From: a virus
Virus record (IMG/VR): IMGVR_UViG_3300033148_002732
Coordinates: 1 to 42,723 of that record
Length of the DNA: 42,723 nucleotides
Strand: one strand, 5' to 3'
Positions 1-39,392 of the stretch are shown piece after piece (positions within the stretch are counted from its first letter, which is position 1; each line of letters opens with the position of its first letter). Under the pieces are notes generated by a model. The model was not told where the DNA came from, ran no database searches, and saw only the letters and a list, made by a program, of their open reading frames with translations. The position numbers were made by a program, and so were the translations under genes.

Positions 1-569
1 TTATTATTAACTATATCTATCAAAGCATAATGCTTTAACAGATAACATTCCCAGTCTTTTCTATAGTCAACATGCCGCACTTCATATTCAATCACTATAA
101 GCTTTGGCTTGAATACATTAAAATCACATCTTGATAAAACCTTCTTTTCATTAGTCTCTACATCAATATTGACTAAGTCACACTCAAGGTATTCTGGGTG
201 CTCTGAATAAATAGTATAAAGCGTTTTGCAGGGCACAACATATGACTCTTTACCCTGGCTAGCGTAATCTTCTCCTATAACACTTCCACTAATAGCAGTA
301 CTATACATTGTAACTTCACCATCGTAATCACTAACAGCCACAGGAAAAAACTTATCTCGTGGCCTTTTCTTTTCCCATAACTCTTTATAGCCAGGTAATG
401 GGTCAAAAGCTAGCCCGTGCCAACCAAGTTCATAAAAATGAAACGTATTAGAATATGTATGAGGGTCACCTGCTCCTATATCTAAATACAAACCCCTTTT
501 AGCACCGCCTATGTATTTAATTATACGCTCATCCTCATTGCACTGACCATAAAAACCATTAGAAATCAT
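1..569 (-). CDS. FkbM-family methyltransferase, C-terminus cut by window edge
   Basis: A frame opens at ATG 569 and runs leftward off the window after 189 codons. It is a SAM-dependent FkbM-type methyltransferase, a family that O-methylates sugars. The SAM-binding motif I (YLDIGAGDPHTYSN) is near residues 28-41. The final visible residues, DIVNN, match the paralogue at 41987-42592, which has about 12 more residues. The first ~75 residues are nearly identical to that paralogue and the rest is clearly diverged. The start lies 11 bp inside the end of the preceding GT2 gene, so translation is probably coupled. Family is well supported; the acceptor sugar is unknown. Confidence 0.85.
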   Translation of the reverse strand, partial: MISNGFYGQCNEDERIIKYIGGAKRGLYLDIGAGDPHTYSNTFHFYELGWHGLAFDPLPGYKELWEKKRPRDKFFPVAVSDYDGEVTMYSTAISGSVIGEDYASQGKESYVVPCKTLYTIYSEHPEYLECDLVNIDVETNEKKVLSRCDFNVFKPKLIVIEYEVRHVDYRKDWECYLLKHYALIDIVNN

Positions 570-1287
570 TTAATATACTCCTTGGTTGCTTGGGGTCACC
601 AAGCTTCTTGCTCTTAAGCAGGCGAATTGTTTGATTTAAATCTTTCATCATCTTATTATAAATGCCTACACGATCTGGGTTTAGCGGGAAATTGCTTTCT
701 TTCGGGTGCCAGTGATGATAAGAATGCGTTAAGTCTACTGGTAAACAATGTATAACACCCAGAATATGTTTTGCTCTCATATAAAAATCATTATCTTCAG
801 CGCCATATCCGAAGTAACTTTCATTCATACCACCGATACTCCAGAAAAACTCTTTATCTACATACCAGGCTCCTCCGGCAGTTTTAACCTCTTTGTAGTT
901 CTTTTTGCGTGGCTCTGGATTGTCTCTACCCACCTGAAGGAGTATATCTCTATAGCCTACACAGAACTTATTCTTTGGAAACTGATCAAACATCTCCAAA
1001 TAATCCTCTGGAAGCTGCATATCAGCATCTAAAATCACACAATTGTTACTTTTTGCCTGCCGTACGCCTACATTTATACACCAACTCTTGTTAAAAGGCT
1101 TCTCATAGCGAAGAATTATGTGATTATTGAATTTAAAGGGTACTTTGCTATGCTTTTCAAAGAGCTCTTCTACTAAGATAACTTCGTAATCCATATGAGT
1201 CTGGCTAAAGACATCCGCCATAAGACCATAAAATGCTCGTTTTCTAGTAGAATCCCCGTCTGTATATGGTATTATTACACTAATCAT
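559..1287 (-). CDS. Family 2 glycosyltransferase
   Basis: A 242-residue GT-A fold glycosyltransferase of family 2. The N-terminus MISVIIPYTDGD is the usual first strand of the nucleotide-sugar binding domain. VILDADMQLP (about residues 83-92) carries the DxD-type metal motif. GGAWYVDKEFFWSIGGMNE and GYGAEDNDFYMRA resemble the acceptor and catalytic ED region of polypeptide-GalNAc/chondroitin-type GT2 enzymes. No membrane segment is seen, so it is probably cytoplasmic. It overlaps GT10-like upstream by 4 bp and FkbM downstream by 11 bp. Its last ~47 codons recur almost unchanged at the right edge of the window. Donor and acceptor are not predictable. Confidence 0.85.
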   Translation of the reverse strand: MISVIIPYTDGDSTRKRAFYGLMADVFSQTHMDYEVILVEELFEKHSKVPFKFNNHIILRYEKPFNKSWCINVGVRQAKSNNCVILDADMQLPEDYLEMFDQFPKNKFCVGYRDILLQVGRDNPEPRKKNYKEVKTAGGAWYVDKEFFWSIGGMNESYFGYGAEDNDFYMRAKHILGVIHCLPVDLTHSYHHWHPKESNFPLNPDRVGIYNKMMKDLNQTIRLLKSKKLGDPKQPRSILNDF

Positions 1288-2126
1288 AGCTTTTTAATGG
1301 TGCTATATACCTTTGCCCATAATTGGAGTTTATTTAAAATATTATACCGAGCTTCTTCTATAGCTTTTAGATTTGCTATATCACTTTGTACAACCCGTAT
1401 AAGCTGATGACAATCCATGTCACCTATATAAGCAAAGGATTCCTTGGGTATATATTTCTCTAAACCTGTACCGCCCTTATAAAATGGCATACAGTACATA
1501 AGTAGCGCATCAGCAATTCGTTCTGAAAAGTAGTTCTCTGCATAGGCATCAAACTCTAAGGAAAATCCGTAATCAGCTAAGATTTCCTTGCCATACCAAT
1601 GCTCGGTTATATTACCGAGTACACCCCTATATGATTTGGATATTGCACCCGTATGTGGAGTCCTACCATAAACATCAACATTTGCTGGATAGTTCGTACA
1701 AAACTCCTCCATATAAGCAAGGCGATCTTTTTGGTAATCCTGACCGTCTGAAGTAGTCATTATACAAATTAATGGCTTGGTCTTTACAGGACACTTCATA
1801 GCAGAAAGAATATCGTAATCGTAATTGAGCCACCACTCAAGAAACCCAGAAGTATTTTTGTAATTGATACTGGCTATACATTCATCTGGGCTTGGGTCAA
1901 AATAGCCAGGATACCCTGTAGGGTGAGCTGATATATAAATAGCCTTTTTAGGATCGAACTTATGTCTTGTTGTCTTGTCTATGATAATATGAAAATCTGC
2001 TTCGTCAGGATTGGTAACCCCAACCATATCCTTCCATTTACCTGAACGATTAGGCGTCATCTTGCTGTATACTTCTAACGTCTTATCATGTTCCCAGTTA
2101 TCATATATGAAACAGACCTTAACCAA
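1284..2126 (-). CDS. GT10 (fucosyltransferase)-like glycosyltransferase
   Basis: A 280-residue protein whose C-terminal half resembles family 10 glycosyltransferases. YGFSLEFDAYAENYFSERI, followed by DALLMYCMPFYKGG and YIPKESFAYI, follows the GT10 pattern (F-E-N...Y-EK-DA-P-Y-G...IP..SFI). The N-terminal half begins with a Rossmann-like strand (VKVCFIYDNWE). GT10 enzymes move fucose or a related 6-deoxysugar from a GDP-sugar, which fits a GDP-mannose 4,6-dehydratase in the same cluster. Start codon overlaps the end of the 951-residue gene by 8 bp. The family call rests on motif recall, and the exact sugar is inference. Confidence 0.65.
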   Translation of the reverse strand: MVKVCFIYDNWEHDKTLEVYSKMTPNRSGKWKDMVGVTNPDEADFHIIIDKTTRHKFDPKKAIYISAHPTGYPGYFDPSPDECIASINYKNTSGFLEWWLNYDYDILSAMKCPVKTKPLICIMTTSDGQDYQKDRLAYMEEFCTNYPANVDVYGRTPHTGAISKSYRGVLGNITEHWYGKEILADYGFSLEFDAYAENYFSERIADALLMYCMPFYKGGTGLEKYIPKESFAYIGDMDCHQLIRVVQSDIANLKAIEEARYNILNKLQLWAKVYSTIKKL

Positions 2127-4974
2127 TTAAAACTCCTAGGTGTGAAACACCTGCGTAACGAAGTTTAATAATTGTAAAACTCTTAACTCCAGCGTCAGTT
2201 AATTCTTTCCATAGAGAATCATATGTATACCAGCGACGATGTCGTAGGTGCATATAATTATCATCCTTGTAGAAGGTGACATCTTTACTATCTTTGTAAA
2301 TTTCACTTCGATCTTTATTAAGATCCTTCTCTTCTTTTTCAATGGTATCAAACGGAATTACCTCCGGATGATGCCACTCATGCTCCAACGGAACAGTAAT
2401 AACTACACGCTTTGCAACCCTAACAGCCTCTTTAATAGCTTGCTGTGGAGCTTCAACGTGCTCCAATATCTCTCCCAGTATCGCAACTTCAAACTCCTTA
2501 TCTTTAAAAGGTAGCTTTTCAGCATTAGCTTGGACAAAGTTTTCTACATTATGCCAAGTGTCAATATCAACTCGTGTCATGTTTGGGTAGTCTTTAAAAA
2601 GACGACCATTAGCACAACCAATTTCTACAGATTTTGATTTCTTATGCACATGATCACGCATCCATTCCATGCGCCCTTGAACCTTAGTTGATACATCTAC
2701 CGGGAATAACTCTGTATGCCAGTCTGAAGCAACCATACCCCAAGAATTATCAGGTAGATAGTGTTCTGGCACTTCAAATTTTAAGTCACCTTTTAAGGCT
2801 TTAAGAAGCGTTTCCTTGAACTTTTCGTTAGTTACTGCTAACGGGTTACGTTCACCCAGAACATAGGCATCATTAGTCACGGGAATACAACCGCAAGCTA
2901 TGGCTTTTGTTAAAGCAATACAATTGATTTCCCCAGAGTATTCACAAGGGTAAGCAAAGATACCTGCTTTGGAGTATTCTTTGAGTAGTTCTTTATGCCC
3001 TACTCTACCGTGTTCATGTACACCTTCTTGCTGCATTTTCTTAAGCATTGAAGCTTTCCACCCGGTATCACGAAGATCACCAGAAGCAACAGCCCTATCA
3101 TAAGAATTCCATCCATAATAGATATGTAGCTCAGCATCAGATACATCTTTCCTAATGCCCGACCACATATCAAGGATGGTCTCTAAACCCCTATTATAAC
3201 TTGAAGCATAGATAATCCTATGAGGGTTACGGATTTCATCCAGCCCCACAAAGTCTTCCGGTACAATTCCGTTAGTAGAAATAAATATCTTCTCTTTCGG
3301 TACTACATCTGGAAGTAGTGAAGCATGATATTGAGAAAGAACAACTATCTTATCAAAGGATCCCACGGACTCTTTGTCAAAAGGCATATTGAGTGGGAGA
3401 TCGTGAACCCATATAATCTTTTTTCTAGCCTCTATACCATATACAAATATGTTAGTACGCCATGATATTAATATGTTATGAGCATCTTTATTATTAAACA
3501 TAACGGGGTTCTTATAAATAACTCCATCATATTCACCCTCATCATCACCACAGTCACAATATACGGTTACATTATAGCCATGCTTAGTAAGTTCTTTGGA
3601 TAGCTGAATTACAGCCTCTTCAGACCCCCCTATACCGCTATCAACCGATTTTGGTGACCATGACTCCCATGTAGTACCACAGTATATTTCAACATCTTGT
3701 TCTCCCCATTGCTTAATGGGTAAAAAGGCGTTACGTGCTTTAGCAATAGAGTTGTGTTGATAAAGCTCTTTAGGGACACTTTTGACTAGGTCGACAATTC
3801 CATCTGGATTTTTATCCCTAGTAAAAGCCAATAACCAAGTAAAATGTTTTACATACTTATCATGATAATAAGCGTCTTCGAAATTCTTCTCGTTCCGCTT
3901 AATATATTCCATTGTAGGAACATATTTCTTGACCTTCTGGAATAACTTCCACGCCTTTTCAAACTCGCCAACCTGATAATAGCAACAAGCTAGAGACATC
4001 ATGGGTCTCCATGTGCGATTCGACGGGTCTACAATAATATTTGTACGTGGTTCTGGCTTACTGAAACCCATGACAGCCCACTCAATAGCCTTTTTCCACT
4101 TCTCTTGCTGAAAGAATGTATCATGTAATTCAAAATACGCATCTGGATATTCAGGTATCTCTTGTAGAGCTTCAAATGCGCAAGCCGTACTCTGTGCATA
4201 CTCTTTCATCGCCCGATACATATGAGCCATCTGACACCAGCTTAAATATCTATCTTCACTCCAGCCCGAACCTTTAATGTGATGTTCAAGGAAAAATATA
4301 GCCTGCTTAAAATTACCAACCCCCATAAAGGATCTACCGAGATAAGCTATGGTTCTAAGATCAGTTTTTTCCTTGTCTTTATTGTATTCAGCGACGAGAT
4401 ATTTTATATTGCGCTTAACACTATCAAGCGAATGTTTTCTATCTATATGGTGCTCAATTTTCAATGAGTTATCTTGCACCATCACAAAATTAAAATTCTT
4501 CTTGGGTAAAACGTTCTCGTGTATATGTTTATTCCAATAAAGCTGGGAAGAATTTTCTATAATTGTTTCCCTATAATGAGCGGCATTTGTATTTCCCCAC
4601 TCATCCTTAGCATAATCGTAATATGTTGAAATAATAGATATTTTTTCCCTAGCTGCACGATCTACTATTTTTTGTATATTCTCTGGGTTACTAATAGAAT
4701 CATCTGTGTCTAACCGAAAATAATACAGTGTTTCACATTTACTAGCTAAAAAGTTTCTTTTCCTATCAAAAAATATACCACCAAAATCTTTTTCTTCCTG
4801 TGACTGCTCATATTTAAAAATTCTAACTTTGTCGCCATCTAACTCTTTAAATTCATCAGTTAATTCATCAACCGCAATGTGTATAGCTGTAAAATACTTC
4901 TGGTATGAATCAATAATATTTCTAACTTTTCCAATTTCATTCTTTGCAATTACATGCAAGGTTATACCTGTCAT
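2119..4974 (-). CDS. 951-aa fusion: GT2-like, TPR, GT4 glycosyltransferase, methyltransferase
   Basis: A single frame with four recognisable parts. Residues 1-200 are GT2-like (ITLHVIAKNE at the start, RLDTDDS with a DxD at 87-93). Residues 205-365 hold helical TPR-like repeats (NFKQAIFFLEHH, EYAQSTACAFEAL, EFEKAWKLFQKV). Residues 430-755 form a GT4-type GT-B enzyme (GIGGSEEAVI at 446, SSYNRGLETI at 591, and the acidic/glycine region around 677-700 with AIACGCIPVT). Residues 770-951 form a class I methyltransferase (VEIGCANGRL at 783, EILEHVEAP near 835). It could extend and cap one glycan on a single scaffold. It overlaps both neighbours by a few bases. Domain calls are firm; substrates are unknown. 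Confidence 0.88.
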   Translation of the reverse strand: MTGITLHVIAKNEIGKVRNIIDSYQKYFTAIHIAVDELTDEFKELDGDKVRIFKYEQSQEEKDFGGIFFDRKRNFLASKCETLYYFRLDTDDSISNPENIQKIVDRAAREKISIISTYYDYAKDEWGNTNAAHYRETIIENSSQLYWNKHIHENVLPKKNFNFVMVQDNSLKIEHHIDRKHSLDSVKRNIKYLVAEYNKDKEKTDLRTIAYLGRSFMGVGNFKQAIFFLEHHIKGSGWSEDRYLSWCQMAHMYRAMKEYAQSTACAFEALQEIPEYPDAYFELHDTFFQQEKWKKAIEWAVMGFSKPEPRTNIIVDPSNRTWRPMMSLACCYYQVGEFEKAWKLFQKVKKYVPTMEYIKRNEKNFEDAYYHDKYVKHFTWLLAFTRDKNPDGIVDLVKSVPKELYQHNSIAKARNAFLPIKQWGEQDVEIYCGTTWESWSPKSVDSGIGGSEEAVIQLSKELTKHGYNVTVYCDCGDDEGEYDGVIYKNPVMFNNKDAHNILISWRTNIFVYGIEARKKIIWVHDLPLNMPFDKESVGSFDKIVVLSQYHASLLPDVVPKEKIFISTNGIVPEDFVGLDEIRNPHRIIYASSYNRGLETILDMWSGIRKDVSDAELHIYYGWNSYDRAVASGDLRDTGWKASMLKKMQQEGVHEHGRVGHKELLKEYSKAGIFAYPCEYSGEINCIALTKAIACGCIPVTNDAYVLGERNPLAVTNEKFKETLLKALKGDLKFEVPEHYLPDNSWGMVASDWHTELFPVDVSTKVQGRMEWMRDHVHKKSKSVEIGCANGRLFKDYPNMTRVDIDTWHNVENFVQANAEKLPFKDKEFEVAILGEILEHVEAPQQAIKEAVRVAKRVVITVPLEHEWHHPEVIPFDTIEKEEKDLNKDRSEIYKDSKDVTFYKDDNYMHLRHRRWYTYDSLWKELTDAGVKSFTIIKLRYAGVSHLGVLIG

Positions 4975-5462
4975 ATTTTCTCCGGTATAGAGAACGCTGG
5001 AAATGCTTTCATAAATTTCCTCATGTCCTCCTTGGTTGCGAACAGTTTCTCATTATACAGTCTTTTAAAATAAGCCCTTAAATCTTGAAATAGCCTCGGA
5101 GGTAACGATAACCCATACCGCATTGTTTTGGTTTTATTAGCCCCGTGTGCATTAACCCGCTCCTTACGTAACTCTTTATTTTGACGTATTAAAGCGTATG
5201 TATGATCTTTATTATTACCAATCTGTGGGTTGTCACAACACTGAAAAACGCTCTTAAGACAGTGCTCGCATCTTAATATAATCTGTTCTTCATTCTTATC
5301 TTCTGAAACAATATTTTGTTTCTTCAGAACTGGTCTCGGACTCTCACAACAAGGTAAATAATCATGACCACAATTATTACAATACATGGTTGGATCTTTA
5401 AGCCACGTACAAATAAACGCATGAGCCGCTACCATCTTATCATTTGTTTGAACGATTGCCAT
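4971..5462 (-). CDS. Cysteine-rich putative zinc-binding protein downstream of capsid
   Basis: A 163-residue protein of unknown function. Two similar cysteine clusters (CNNCGHDYLPCC and CEHCLKSVFQCC) suggest a duplicated zinc ribbon. The C-terminal 50 residues are basic and helical. The frame is open to 5495, but ATG 5462 has GAGGA seven bases upstream, so it is preferred. That start lies inside the last 23 bp of the HNH gene. It is the last gene before the glycan cluster. In head modules the gene after the capsid often encodes a decoration or completion protein, but nothing in the sequence proves that here. Confidence 0.7.
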   Translation of the reverse strand: MAIVQTNDKMVAAHAFICTWLKDPTMYCNNCGHDYLPCCESPRPVLKKQNIVSEDKNEEQIILRCEHCLKSVFQCCDNPQIGNNKDHTYALIRQNKELRKERVNAHGANKTKTMRYGLSLPPRLFQDLRAYFKRLYNEKLFATKEDMRKFMKAFPAFSIPEKI

Positions 5463-5940
5463 GCTTAATTCCTCTATTATTACGAAATTTGTCAACTATA
5501 CAATGACAATTTTCGCATAGGGTTATACCATTAAAAATATCAAATCTTAGGTGTTTAAACTCTGCAAATGGTAATATATGATGAGCTTCTAGGCGGTCAT
5601 TATTGACACCACACCCACGACAAGAATAATTATCTCTTTCATATACTGCTTTTCTCCAAATGTCATAATCTGAAGATGTTCTTAAGCGTATAGTTTCAGA
5701 AGTTACTCCGCCCTTCCAAGAACCATTTTTACTACCTACATTTTTACCTTTTAAAGATTTTCTTAAAGAATTTTTCCATTTATCAGAAAATGTTTTTCCA
5801 AGATTTGGCTTTCTACCAACACGTGCTTTCTTTAACTTATTCTTATGGGCATCTGATAGAGGTTTACCTTTTTTAGCCATAGACATTTTTTGTAATGTTT
5901 CTTTGCTATATATATTTTTTTTACCTTTATTCCAAACCAT
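5440..5940 (-). CDS. NUMOD3-HNH free-standing homing endonuclease
   Basis: A 166-residue homing endonuclease of the HNH type. Residues 10-75 carry repeated NUMOD3 DNA-binding motifs (SKETLQKMSMAKKGKPLS, SDAHKNKLKKARVGRK, GSKNGSWKGG). Residues 95-155 form the HNH nuclease with paired zinc cysteines (CRGCG, CENCH) and catalytic EAHHILPF. Such enzymes nick DNA near their own insertion site and spread by homing. It is wedged between the capsid gene and the zinc-binding gene, with no sign of its own intron. A GGAGGG ribosome binding site precedes ATG 5940 and is enclosed in a strong predicted RNA structure. Confidence 0.9.
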   Translation of the reverse strand: MVWNKGKKNIYSKETLQKMSMAKKGKPLSDAHKNKLKKARVGRKPNLGKTFSDKWKNSLRKSLKGKNVGSKNGSWKGGVTSETIRLRTSSDYDIWRKAVYERDNYSCRGCGVNNDRLEAHHILPFAEFKHLRFDIFNGITLCENCHCIVDKFRNNRGIKHGNRSNK

Positions 5941-6027: not shown

Positions 6028-6779
6028 TTATATGTGCTGATCCGCCCAATATCCGCAGTCATAGTGGTGATTTTCCAAGCAGAGTTCACCAACAACGTTT
6101 CCACCAGTGAAGTCACCAGTCTTGGCGATATCCTGTAGGAACGGTTTACGGAGATATGCTATTTTGAACATATCCTCGTTAATACATACAACACCATAGT
6201 TAGTGTCTGTTCCAGATATAGAAACATACCTGTGTGCAAACAACTTAACTACAGAAGCAGCATCTGATTCATATATATCAACCGCATTCACCAATCTGCG
6301 ATCTTTTGCATCAAGGTTCATTGTAGAATTAGCAGTGAAACCACTAATCTTGCGTTTCATATACATAGGACAATATACTGCATTTACCATGGTAGACGTA
6401 TTATCCCAAACTGCCTGAAAATAATCGTTTAACATAGTCTCAGTCATAGATATACCTGACTGGGCGGTCAATAATGACAAGGAAGCTTTTACACCCCTTG
6501 ACTGTCTGGCTACATCACTTTGACCTGATGCTAAAGATCCACGCATCATAGCGTACTCTGCGTCGTTCTTCCACATCTTCATAGCCTTTACTTGCTCATA
6601 GCGATACCTATCATCAAAACCAGCCATATCAGTATCTCTGATTGTATCAGAGACCTTATAGCCTTGCTTAATCAGCTGAGTATAGTTGTTAAGCCTTGTT
6701 GGATCAGTAAGGTTATGATAAGTAACGTCTGCACCTTCAAGCTGTGCGTTTGCTTTCACTGAATTCAACGTGTCAATTA
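6028..6779 (-). CDS. Major capsid protein, SU10/DUF5309 type, exon 2
   Basis: The second exon of the major capsid gene encodes about 250 residues. Features typical of the SU10-type HK97-fold capsid family are DTLNSVKANAQLEGAD at the exon start, YRYEQVKAMKMWKNDAEYAMM in the spine helix, and the C-terminal KPFLQDIAKTGDF with a final GYWADQHI. There is no ATG at the start of this open frame. It continues upstream into the intron boundary and must be joined to 7584-7728. Joining T 7584 to T 6779 gives HEW-L-I-D-T-L in frame and a total of 298 residues. It lies downstream of the scaffold-like gene. Confidence 0.88.
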
Positions 6780-7583
6780 CAACGAAACATATCGTTAGAC
6801 TATATCTTCCACCGTATTATTACGGATAGGATTGGTTTGTAAAAAATACCTTAATTTATATGACATTGAGGGAATAATGTGTTTTTTAATAATTTTAATA
6901 AACTTAATTGAATTTGGTTTATTAAAATATAAACATGGATACTTACCTCCATGTATTAAAACACGAATATCAAGTTCTTCTTGAAAATATCTTTGTATTA
7001 TCTCATTATCTTTTTGTGAAAAAGAACAAGTACAAAGAAATAATTGAGGATATTTTCTATTATTAACTCCCGTTGTTCCATCATCCATAAACCAAGTTGC
7101 TAATCCTAATGAGGTTAATGTATTAAGTAACTTTCTTGATACCCTTTTTTTACCTTCTGGGTAAAACTTCTTTCGCAACATAGTAAAATAAGACAGGTTA
7201 CGGGTTCTTAATGTAAGTGTTGTGTATTCCTTTTTTCTTATTCTATGATAATGCGTTGCTTGTTTTATTCCAGATGATATAGGAGATAAAAAACTTTCTT
7301 TCCACTCCATATATTCCCTTTGTTTAGGTGAATGACATATCATTAAATGATAGTGTCTTGAGTCAGTAGATTTATATATGCCAGCATCACCAAACAAACT
7401 GCCAAAGAGCATTTCTCTTGCTTTCTTCGTTAAAGGATTTTGCATTTCTGCCTCCTTCACTACTAAATAATATTTTTTTAGTCGTTACACCTTCCTACCA
7501 TTGTAGGCTCGGCTCGGGATTACCTGTTAAGGTTTCCCCGAATTTCCAATCTGTTTTACGAAAGGCTAATCATTCTTATGAAA
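6780..7583 (-). mobile_element. Group I intron in the major capsid gene
   Basis: An approximately 804-nt insertion with group I core elements. GGTGTAACGACTA (about 7483-7495) fits the R element (5' strand of P7) and AAGATATAGTC (about 6798-6808) fits the S element (3' strand of P7); GACTA and TAGTC are complementary. A G-rich P3/P4-like region precedes R. The predicted 5' splice site follows a U and the intron ends in G, as group I introns require. The LAGLIDADG gene lies between R and S, in the P8 region. Splice sites are chosen from capsid homology and could be off by a few bases. Confidence 0.8.
6795..7445 (-). CDS. LAGLIDADG homing endonuclease inside the intron
   Basis: A 216-residue double-motif LAGLIDADG endonuclease. 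The two motif helices are LFGSLFGDAG (near residue 14) and GLATWFMDDG (near residue 120), each ending in the catalytic acidic residue. A GTG at 7460 is in frame, but ATG 7445 is preceded by GGAGG at ideal distance and is preferred. The enzyme would cut intronless capsid alleles and allow the intron to home; some also act as maturases. Its last codons (VEDIV then stop) are read from the intron's own S element, so the coding end and ribozyme core overlap. Confidence 0.9.
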   Translation of the reverse strand: MQNPLTKKAREMLFGSLFGDAGIYKSTDSRHYHLMICHSPKQREYMEWKESFLSPISSGIKQATHYHRIRKKEYTTLTLRTRNLSYFTMLRKKFYPEGKKRVSRKLLNTLTSLGLATWFMDDGTTGVNNRKYPQLFLCTCSFSQKDNEIIQRYFQEELDIRVLIHGGKYPCLYFNKPNSIKFIKIIKKHIIPSMSYKLRYFLQTNPIRNNTVEDIV

Positions 7584-7728
7584 ACCATTCGTGACGTATG
7601 GACTTCGCTGTGGAAGTTCCAAGACCACTCAATAATTGCGTCTCCGTTGGACTCAGATTAGTAATTATACTTAATAGATCCTCTCTCAGAGCTTCATCGT
7701 TATAAGTATAAGCAATATCTAGTGCCAT
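7584..7728 (-). CDS. Major capsid protein exon 1 (N-terminus)
   Basis: ATG 7728 opens a frame of 48 codons plus one base: MALDIAYTYNDEALREDL at the start, then SPTETQLLSGLG and AKSIRHEW. In SU10-type capsid proteins this N-terminal segment is followed by two residues and D(T/S)L, which is what the predicted splice to exon 2 restores. Without splicing the frame stops two codons later. It begins seven bases after the scaffold-like gene ends. Confidence 0.8.
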
Positions 7729-7734
7729 TCTATA

Positions 7735-8673
7735 TTACTCCTTTTTGTGCGCCTTAAGTATGGCGTCCAATGCCACCTTGGCATCTTCCACCTTACCTGT
7801 TTCTTTAGCCCTGTCTAACGCTTGCTGATGGGCAGGAGTAGATTGCGGTGAAGATATTCCACCACCCTCAACTAAGGTTTGCCTTTGCAGGCTACCGACT
7901 TTCTCCTTCAATTTCTGCTGCGTCTGTGCGACTTGTCCTTGACCAGCAGCTACTGAATCCGCATATGCCAACTTTGATGCTATGAAGAATTTATCTGGTC
8001 TCTTCTGAAGATCAGGGTCACTAAGGTAGTTAACCATAGCTTGCCCCATAGGATTCTGAAGATTCGGAACAGGGTCACCGTTCTTATCAACCACAAATTG
8101 CCCATTCATTCCCTTTAAAAAAGCATCAGGGAACTTATTGACTGTGTATGAGTTTGCTTGCTGCCGTTTAATAGTATTTTCCTGTGAGGTTTTGAAACGA
8201 GCAAGTTCATCACGTATAACTTGTGTTTGTTCTTCTTTATCCAACTTTCTAATTTCTTCTTTTGCCCAATTAACATATTGCGGATTGTCCGCATACTGTT
8301 CTTGGAAAGCCTCAAGCTGCTGCCTGGAGTAGTGAGGTTTACCATCCTTCTTAGCAATAGCTTCTGCCACTATATTGGGCAGCTTATCCACTAAGTCCTC
8401 AGTCTTACGTTTATATTCCATGGCTCGGTTTTTCCAGGGTACACCATTCTCGTCGTACAAATCCTGGTTACTGCCAGGCTCAGGAGATGGTGTTGGCTCT
8501 GAATCTACCTTTGGCTGTGGGTCGGCGACAGCCGGAGTTGCGACCTCTTTTGATTCTGCTTCTGGAGCTGCTTCTGGAGCTGCTTCTGGAGCTGCTTCTG
8601 GAGCTGCTTCTGGAGCTGGTGCCGGAGTAGGTGTCTCTTCGGCTAGTTTTACACCCTGTTTTGGTTCTGGCAT
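7735..8673 (-). CDS. Putative capsid scaffolding protein
   Basis: A 312-residue hydrophilic protein directly upstream of the capsid gene, the usual place for a scaffold. The first ~70 residues are Pro/Ala/Glu-rich and contain PEAA-type tandem repeats. Residues 100-190 are charged and helical (YSRQQLEAFQEQYADNP, EEIRKLDKEEQTQVIRDEL). The C-terminus is helical and basic (LDAILKAHKKE), as in scaffolds that bind the capsid shell. There is no catalytic motif and no membrane segment. The call rests on position, composition and helical content, not on a recognised domain. Confidence 0.7.
   Translation of the reverse strand: MPEPKQGVKLAEETPTPAPAPEAAPEAAPEAAPEAAPEAESKEVATPAVADPQPKVDSEPTPSPEPGSNQDLYDENGVPWKNRAMEYKRKTEDLVDKLPNIVAEAIAKKDGKPHYSRQQLEAFQEQYADNPQYVNWAKEEIRKLDKEEQTQVIRDELARFKTSQENTIKRQQANSYTVNKFPDAFLKGMNGQFVVDKNGDPVPNLQNPMGQAMVNYLSDPDLQKRPDKFFIASKLAYADSVAAGQGQVAQTQQKLKEKVGSLQRQTLVEGGGISSPQSTPAHQQALDRAKETGKVEDAKVALDAILKAHKKE
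8558..8617 (-). repeat. Five 12-bp tandem repeats in the scaffold gene
   Basis: The unit GCTTCTGGAGCT (+ strand) is repeated five times perfectly. It encodes Pro-Glu-Ala-Ala steps in the flexible N-terminus of the scaffold-like protein. In-frame 12-bp units can change copy number by slippage without breaking the gene. Confidence 0.9.
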
Positions 8674-38343: not shown

Positions 38344-39392
38344 TACGCCTTCCTTACGGACTCCGACTTCCCAAGGAACTGTAGTATTTTCTGACATATC
38401 TTATCCACCTCGTTTCCAGTTAAGTCTATTGATGATGGAAGCCATAAACCTCTATCTGATAGTTCTTGTGCTACAGGGAACTTTTTATACTCCCTATAAA
38501 GGTCATTGTGTGGAACGACTGGGTACATTCTTCGTGTTTCAATACCGTTCTCTTTTAAAAACTTTAGTAATTCATCTGGACTATCAACATAGATGTCAAC
38601 CATCCAAGGAGTGAGAAGGTGCTGATACATAATATCACCAAGACATACCCTATATCTTCCATAAGTTAACCTCTTTATCTTTAGTCTATCCTCTAAATAT
38701 TTAAGTTGTTGTAACCCTATAACAGCTTGTAGGTCAGTAAACTTAGCATTAATACCAAACCATCTATGTTCATCTATACCACCCTTAGTCCTACCAAAGT
38801 CTCTTAGGTGTCTGATATGATTCCATATCTCGTCACTGTTGGTTACTATTAGTCCACCCTGTCCAGTGGATATAATCTTATGGGGAGAGAGTGAAAACAC
38901 ACCAACGTCACCTATAGTACCAAGTTTGTAACTTCCTAAAGACTGACAGGCATCTTCTATCATAGGTATCTTCTTGTAGTCGCAGTAGTCTCTAACGTCT
39001 TTAATGTTACCCATTCTCCCGTTAAGAGACACAAACATCACTGCGTCTACTTTCTCTTTGAGTTTATATATATCTAAACAACCCTGTGAGTCTACATCTA
39101 CAAAGATTGGATGAGCACCTACCATAGATATTGCTGTAGCAGTAGCTGCCATAGTCAGTGCAGGACACGCTACGTGGTCTCCTATACCTATTCTACAAGC
39201 CTTTAAAGCCAATATAAGACCCAAAGTACCATTAGGTACGGCACTACAATGTTTTACTTCTAAGAAAGAACTGATTGCCACTTCAAACTCTCTTGTATAC
39301 TTAAACTCCGTAAGCCACGAGCCACTCATAACTAAGTCATAAACGACCTGTGCTTCTTCCATACCAAATAACGGTTTAATCTGTGGTATCAT
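38343..39392 (-). CDS. DegT/DnrJ/EryC1 sugar aminotransferase
   Basis: A 349-residue PLP-dependent sugar aminotransferase. MIPQIKPLFGMEEAQ is the usual start, with PNGTLGLILALKA at the PLP phosphate site, MIEDACQSLGSYK, and FSLSPHKIISTGQGG with the PLP-binding Lys. RHLRDFGRTKGG and GINAKFTDLQAVIGLQQL complete the family set. Together with the GDP-mannose dehydratase it could make GDP-perosamine (PerA-type reaction on the 4-keto sugar). The length is normal. Overlaps neighbours, so co-transcribed. Confidence 0.9.
   Translation of the reverse strand: MIPQIKPLFGMEEAQVVYDLVMSGSWLTEFKYTREFEVAISSFLEVKHCSAVPNGTLGLILALKACRIGIGDHVACPALTMAATATAISMVGAHPIFVDVDSQGCLDIYKLKEKVDAVMFVSLNGRMGNIKDVRDYCDYKKIPMIEDACQSLGSYKLGTIGDVGVFSLSPHKIISTGQGGLIVTNSDEIWNHIRHLRDFGRTKGGIDEHRWFGINAKFTDLQAVIGLQQLKYLEDRLKIKRLTYGRYRVCLGDIMYQHLLTPWMVDIYVDSPDELLKFLKENGIETRRMYPVVPHNDLYREYKKFPVAQELSDRGLWLPSSIDLTGNEVDKICQKILQFLGKSESVRKA

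Follow-up and report, generated by a model that had tools for sequence, protein, structure and literature searches.

The window analysed here, 42,723 nucleotides of a viral record in IMG/VR, very probably carries a mobile group I intron, putatively of the IA type. The intron splits the major capsid gene at the site encoding HEWLIDTL and contains a gene for a homing endonuclease. Our reading draws on the exon junction, conserved pairing in the ribozyme core, an intron at the same site in the related contig L004, homology of the encoded protein to LAGLIDADG_2 enzymes and I-SceI, and a patchy distribution.

A split capsid gene and its exon junction

An SU10-type major capsid gene lies on the minus strand, in two pieces. 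The open reading frame at 6768-6028 matches SU10_MCP (PF17236, E=1.8e-46) and the phage major head family phrog_1328. Both matches start at profile position 54-60; hence, the N-terminus is absent from this frame. The missing part is found upstream, at 7728-7584, and can be aligned to intronless capsid genes (L002, L003 and L096-L116). The interruption between the two exons is an 804-nt group I intron. The parts of the locus are as follows.

7584-7728, minus strand: exon 1 of the major capsid gene, codons 1-48 and base 1 of codon 49, ending ...CGAAUGGU
6780-7583, minus strand: group I intron, 804 nt, starting UUUCAUAA and ending ...UUCGUUG, with omega-G at 6780; L004 has an intron at the same site
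7576-7578, minus strand: UAA in frame with exon 1 (HEWFS*), read from the sequence
6028-6779, minus strand: exon 2 of the major capsid gene, SU10_MCP (PF17236, E=1.8e-46)

Joining 7584 to 6779 gives the junction ...CGAATGGT^TAATTGACACG, which reads MALDIAYTYNDEALRE...RHEWLIDTLNSV... in translation. Among the junction pairs tried near both ends, 7584/6780 is the only U|...G pair that yields HEWLIDTL; other such pairs leave some frames open, none with the sequence and length of the relatives. The last base of the 5' exon, U7584, pairs with G7566 in P1, and the last intron base is G6780. In the intronless relatives L002 and L003, RHEWLIDTL is unbroken at the junction. According to the initial annotation, the major capsid gene is split by a group I intron at 6780-7583 whose removal restores the HEWLIDTL frame; comparison with intronless capsid relatives was named as a check. 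The boundaries given there prove exact, the same stretch is contiguous in L002 and L003, and both the type of intron and its host gene are supported. Note that the coding sequence at the insertion site is well conserved; its eight-residue window ranks 14 of 290. Among isolated phages, tblastn with the capsid exon found only relatives below 60% identity.

Translation of exon 1 is halted by the in-frame UAA soon after HEW, upstream of the guide sequence. L004 likewise has an exon-1 stop just inside the intron (HEWLS*). Group I introns of coding genes typically have such early in-frame stops (PMC3073962), which are thought to keep ribosomes off the ribozyme (PMC3073962, PMC3984707).

Phage capsid introns are already known, one of them with a LAGLIDADG gene (PMC3706429). 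Mycobacteriophage LittleE has a group I-type intron of ~820 bp in its major capsid gene, with a LAGLIDADG-like nuclease, a U preceding the intron and a G ending it, as here (PMC3706429). Its splicing was shown by RT-PCR and protein sequencing, and the efficiency of capsid splicing is presumed in that study to be extremely high (PMC3706429). However, the LittleE nuclease is I-CreI-like and on the opposite strand, whereas the ORF here is read in the sense direction and terminates within the core; the capsid family also differs. Lactococcal phage Tuc2009 is cited in PMC3706429 as another case of a group I intron in a capsid gene.

Other features of the window are recorded here for completeness. 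A short tandem repeat, seen by eye (8560-8630, minus strand, unit like GGAGCTGCTTCT), lies inside a putative scaffold gene (7735-8673) upstream of the capsid gene. Sugar or surface-glycan functions carried by the phage are suggested by genes at 562-4974 and 38346-39392 (minus strand), which resemble those for glycosyltransferases (one of 951 aa) and an aminotransferase.

Anatomy and pairing of the ribozyme core

The elements of the intron are listed in transcript order, with the endonuclease frame that divides them.

7567-7571, minus strand: P10 guide GAUUA, pairing with the exon-2 start UAAUU (6779-6775)
7559-7566, minus strand: P1 guide GCCUUUCG, pairing with the exon end CGAAUGGU (7591-7584), G-U at the splice site
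7546-7551, minus strand: P3 5' strand GAUUGG, 59/60 pairs in ten related introns
7514-7541, minus strand: P4 (7541-7536 with 7519-7514) and P5 (7533-7530 with 7525-7522)
7489-7513, minus strand: P6 (7513-7511 with 7491-7489) and P6a (7507-7503 with 7498-7494), from the fold and the RF00028 alignment
7479-7483, minus strand: P7 5' strand GACUA (R element, GGUGUAACGACUAA), from the RF00028 alignment, invariant in ten introns
7469-7478, minus strand: putative P7.1 5' strand AAAAAAUAUU, pairing with GGUAUUUUUU (6850-6841) and closing the loop that holds the ORF
6795-7445, minus strand: LAGLIDADG_2 (I-SceI-like) homing endonuclease ORF, 216 aa, stop UAA at 6797-6795
6830-6835, minus strand: P3 3' strand CCAAUC, within the ORF, from the fold and pair counts
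6812-6825, minus strand: P8 hairpin CCGUA/UACGG, within the ORF and coding for IRNNT, 50/50 pairs in ten introns
6798-6802, minus strand: P7 3' strand UAGUC (S element, GAUAUAGUC), the last ORF codons (VEDIV*)
6781-6796, minus strand: P9 hairpin AACGA/UCGUU; the L004 sequence differs yet pairs (AAAACUU/AAGUUUU)

A covariance search, proposed in the initial annotation, was partly successful. In ~1 kb searched, the Rfam model RF00028 matched the P4-P7 half of the core (7544-7477) with 24.9 bits (E=5.6e-4), below its gathering score of 50, which is an operational cut-off and not a structural feature. Whole-window Rfam scans, at the gathering cut-off and at E up to 0.5, reported nothing, this intron included, and detected no second intron in the window. 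Both the low score and the miss are likely because the ORF, of ~650 nt, parts the two halves of the core. The upstream introns of L005 and L007 do pass the gathering score.

Ten related introns share one layout, in which P3, P4, P5, P6 and the P7 5' strand are followed by the ORF and then by P3', P8 and P7'. When the cores were folded with a linker in place of the ORF, minimum free energy structures contained P3, P4 and P8 in nearly all ten. Paired positions number 59/60 in P3, 60/60 in P4 and 50/50 in P8, with many compensatory changes, and the observed counts were attained in 0 of 20,000 partner shuffles; note that stems were located by hand and by the same folding, so these figures lean towards the structure. 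In P3, both sides vary at all six positions. P4 and P5 are recovered in the relatives by the folds, with compensatory changes in P4, and the basis for P5 and P6 is folding rather than covariation. An SPO1-type layout, with P3' straight after R and the ORF in P8, was rejected; the P3 complement is downstream of the ORF in 10/10 introns.

The window and L004 differ in sequence in P1, P10, P4, P8 and P9, with pairing kept. P1, which has one U-U mismatch, retains its pairs in L004 despite A-U to G-C and C-G to U-G changes. P10 has a compensatory A-U to G-C change, and P8 changes from CCGU/ACGG to CCGA/UCGG. The R and S elements of P7 are as recognisable as the initial annotation had said (R, GGUGUAACGACUAA, 7483-7479; S, GAUAUAGUC, 6802-6798). 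The GACUA/UAGUC pair is present but invariant in the ten introns; hence, covariation speaks neither for nor against it. The putative P7.1 has 10 bp in both the window and L004, and its one consistent change (U-G to C-G) is weak evidence. Between P7 5' and P3' there is no clear P7.2 helix, and the candidate P7.1 stands alone. With this candidate helix and without a clear P7.2, the intron is putatively of the IA type. A blastn search of phage genomes yielded nothing more than 45 nt of matching core, in Staphylococcus phage PMBT8.

The sub-threshold Rfam score might be taken to indicate a degenerate remnant that does not splice, leaving the capsid gene broken or expressed as two pieces. We consider this highly improbable. 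The core helices are all intact and are kept by compensation in L004, the endonuclease frame is open with both of its motifs, the exon frames are intact and joinable, and a phage needs its major capsid protein. For a functional intron, the expected course would be that the transcript folds, the exon end pairs with the guide as P1, and the ribozyme excises itself and ligates 7584 to 6779 with help from P10, so restoring the capsid frame.

The endonuclease frame and its overlap with the core

The ORF lies between P7 5' and P3'. Its start is assigned to the ATG at 7445, preceded by AAGGAGG (7457-7451). The GTG at 7460 was set aside; it is only the mechanical start of the frame, and the ATG sits behind the AAGGAGG. 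From these signals inside the intron, the endonuclease would be translated from unspliced RNA or an intron transcript. The product matches PF03161 (LAGLIDADG_2) with E=1.2e-36 and 126.7 bits, against a cut-off of 25, and also PHROG 11023. Note that a LAGLIDADG_2 protein of PHROG 11023 in a phage intron has already been published (PMC11878797). Both LAGLIDADG motifs are open and have their acidic residues (GDA, MDDG), and the GD and MDDG columns are invariant.

Among solved structures, I-SceI-type enzymes are closest to the ORF product. Chains of I-SceI match with E~1e-9. Like I-SceI (PDB 1r7m), the product is a two-motif LAGLIDADG protein; homology covers residues 79-199 of the 215-aa query in a single-sequence match, and the full domain with a profile. 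Some LAGLIDADG proteins, for example I-AniI, are maturases (noted in PMC1995217), and the protein might be required for splicing, instead of or besides acting in homing. With I-SceI-type endonucleases as its nearest solved relatives and both acidic motifs in place, we think a maturase improbable and favour a homing endonuclease.

Unlike I-SceI, the product continues into a tail encoded by the core, and homology ends where this tail begins. The residues beyond the match (roughly YFLQTNPIRNNTVEDIV) are encoded by P7.1', P3', P8 and P7'. That I-SceI homology stops before the tail is only suggestive of a tail dispensable for the enzyme. The 3' end of the ORF reads GTG GAA GAT ATA GTC TAA, in which S supplies the last codons. 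The initial annotation had the ORF end in the core, with S as its last codons, and this holds. However, it understated the extent of the overlap; the last ~20 codons also hold the putative P7.1' (6850-6841), P3' (6835-6830) and P8 (6825-6812).

The shared letters leave a mark on codon use. Where residues are identical, identical codons are used at 13/14 positions in the last 20 codons, compared with 77/134 (~58%) in the ORF body (hypergeometric P=0.006). Because of this excess, and the compensatory P8 change inside coding sequence, we conclude that a dual constraint on the ORF end, from protein and RNA, is supported.

Such overlap is a named phenomenon, 'core creep', in which an ORF first occupies a loop and is afterwards prolonged into the core as stop codons are lost (PMC3073962); its novelty was overstated in the initial annotation, as was that of an intron in a phage capsid gene. 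LAGLIDADG ORFs across P7, P3 and P8 are likewise known (PMC1995217). In the LSU rRNA introns of Synechococcus C9 and C1, such ORFs run through P7, P3 and P8 into P9 (PMC1995217; Table 1 of PMC3073962). There, however, the host gene is for rRNA, the endonucleases have a single motif and the ORF enters from P6 or P8, whereas here it lies between P7 and P3'. The T4 td/I-TevI and Pf-WMP3 I-PfoP3I systems are, as here, introns of phage protein genes with endonuclease ORFs overlapping core helices (PMC3073962, PMC3428280). Their enzymes are instead of the GIY-YIG and HNH types, with the ORF in P6/P6a. The stop codons of 18 related ORFs are spread around the start of S, the earliest 56 nt before it and the latest 66 nt after it. 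Variable stop positions are what core creep predicts. Support in the endonuclease tree is too weak to count ORF-extension events. Here, the ORF would have entered between P7 5' and P3', and loss of stop codons would then have carried it on into P3', P8 and P7'.

Translation as far as the ORF stop would unfold P3', P8 and P7'. Hence, splicing and full translation would be mutually exclusive for each RNA, and such competition could limit capsid supply, which the initial annotation had seen as tied to splicing. Together with the location in a late structural gene, and the 'molecular switch' role proposed for other phage introns (PMC11878797), this overlap could be seen as a late-gene switch, in which splicing (for instance GTP-sensed) regulates capsid output and the insertion is retained for the benefit of the phage. 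This seems unlikely to us, since most relatives, including the nearest (L096), have no intron, which is therefore dispensable. The same distribution fits a mobile element.

Distribution, mobility and capsid genes as possible targets

L004 shares both the intron and its site, and the two endonucleases are 74% identical. In other capsid genes of the close clade, from viral contigs, the site is uninterrupted. In the capsid tree, the window groups with intronless L096 (support 100/100) and L004 with intronless L097 (96/98). Since each intron-bearing gene pairs with an intronless sister, the tree calls for no fewer than two gains or losses. Such pairing is as homing predicts, and the distribution overall is what one would expect of a homing intron. 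During co-infection, the endonuclease would cleave the intronless capsid gene of another phage at the same site, and repair of the cut would copy the intron into the intronless allele. Between the window and L004, the 5' core of the intron is 85% identical and the adjoining exons are 66-68% identical; this difference may partly reflect ribozyme constraint, not recent transfer. The closest further relative of the endonuclease is in a distant capsid gene (28% identity) of L005, 3 bases off the equivalent position.

The intron family adjoins several head families: phrog_1328 (the window, L005/L018), phrog_267 (L046), phrog_14242 (L084) and, more weakly, phrog_371 (L044). With several head families, at least two introns per capsid gene and, in L005, introns 7 nt apart at HEW, we tentatively propose that the lineage whose LAGLIDADG_2 ORF lies between P7 and P3' has major capsid genes as a preferred homing target and has entered them repeatedly, in phages that are unrelated.

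Several observations concern the relatives. The capsid gene of L004 (3060-4880) has a second group I intron, at about 3120-3780, between LLD and LLTNL codons. The HNH ORF of this intron (3132-3740) extends across P4-P7 5' of the ribozyme that contains it, and the two intron ORFs of this gene overlap their cores from opposite sides. In L005, and also in L006, the distant capsid gene (3512-4785 in L005) is interrupted twice by group I introns, at 3512-3834 (with a 5' end that is not uniquely fixed) and at 3842-4785. They apparently flank a 7-nt exon, CATGAGT, coding for HE(W) of the conserved motif. Related endonucleases or introns in L046, L084, L044, L023, L034 and L061 also flank frames for terminase large subunit, DnaB-like helicase and DNA polymerase. 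In the window itself, an HNH endonuclease gene with a NUMOD3-like motif (5440-5940, minus strand, start near 5462) lies between the capsid gene and the next gene. No intron core was found around it; hence, it is probably free-standing, and it may be a second element that targets the capsid region.

The locus offers a clean case of a mobile intron whose host gene encodes the most abundant virion protein, and in which an RNA enzyme and a protein end share the same letters. With stops that vary over ~120 nt among relatives, the family of ten introns makes core creep testable. Standard Rfam annotation misses introns split by an ORF; hence, in metagenomic phages, major capsid genes could appear incomplete or missing. 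Why introns had colonised core genes of nucleotide and DNA metabolism alone was a question raised in a 2025 survey of one phage subfamily (PMC11878797). If capsid genes are indeed recurrent targets, they would be a counter-example to the view that phage introns belong mainly to nucleotide metabolism.
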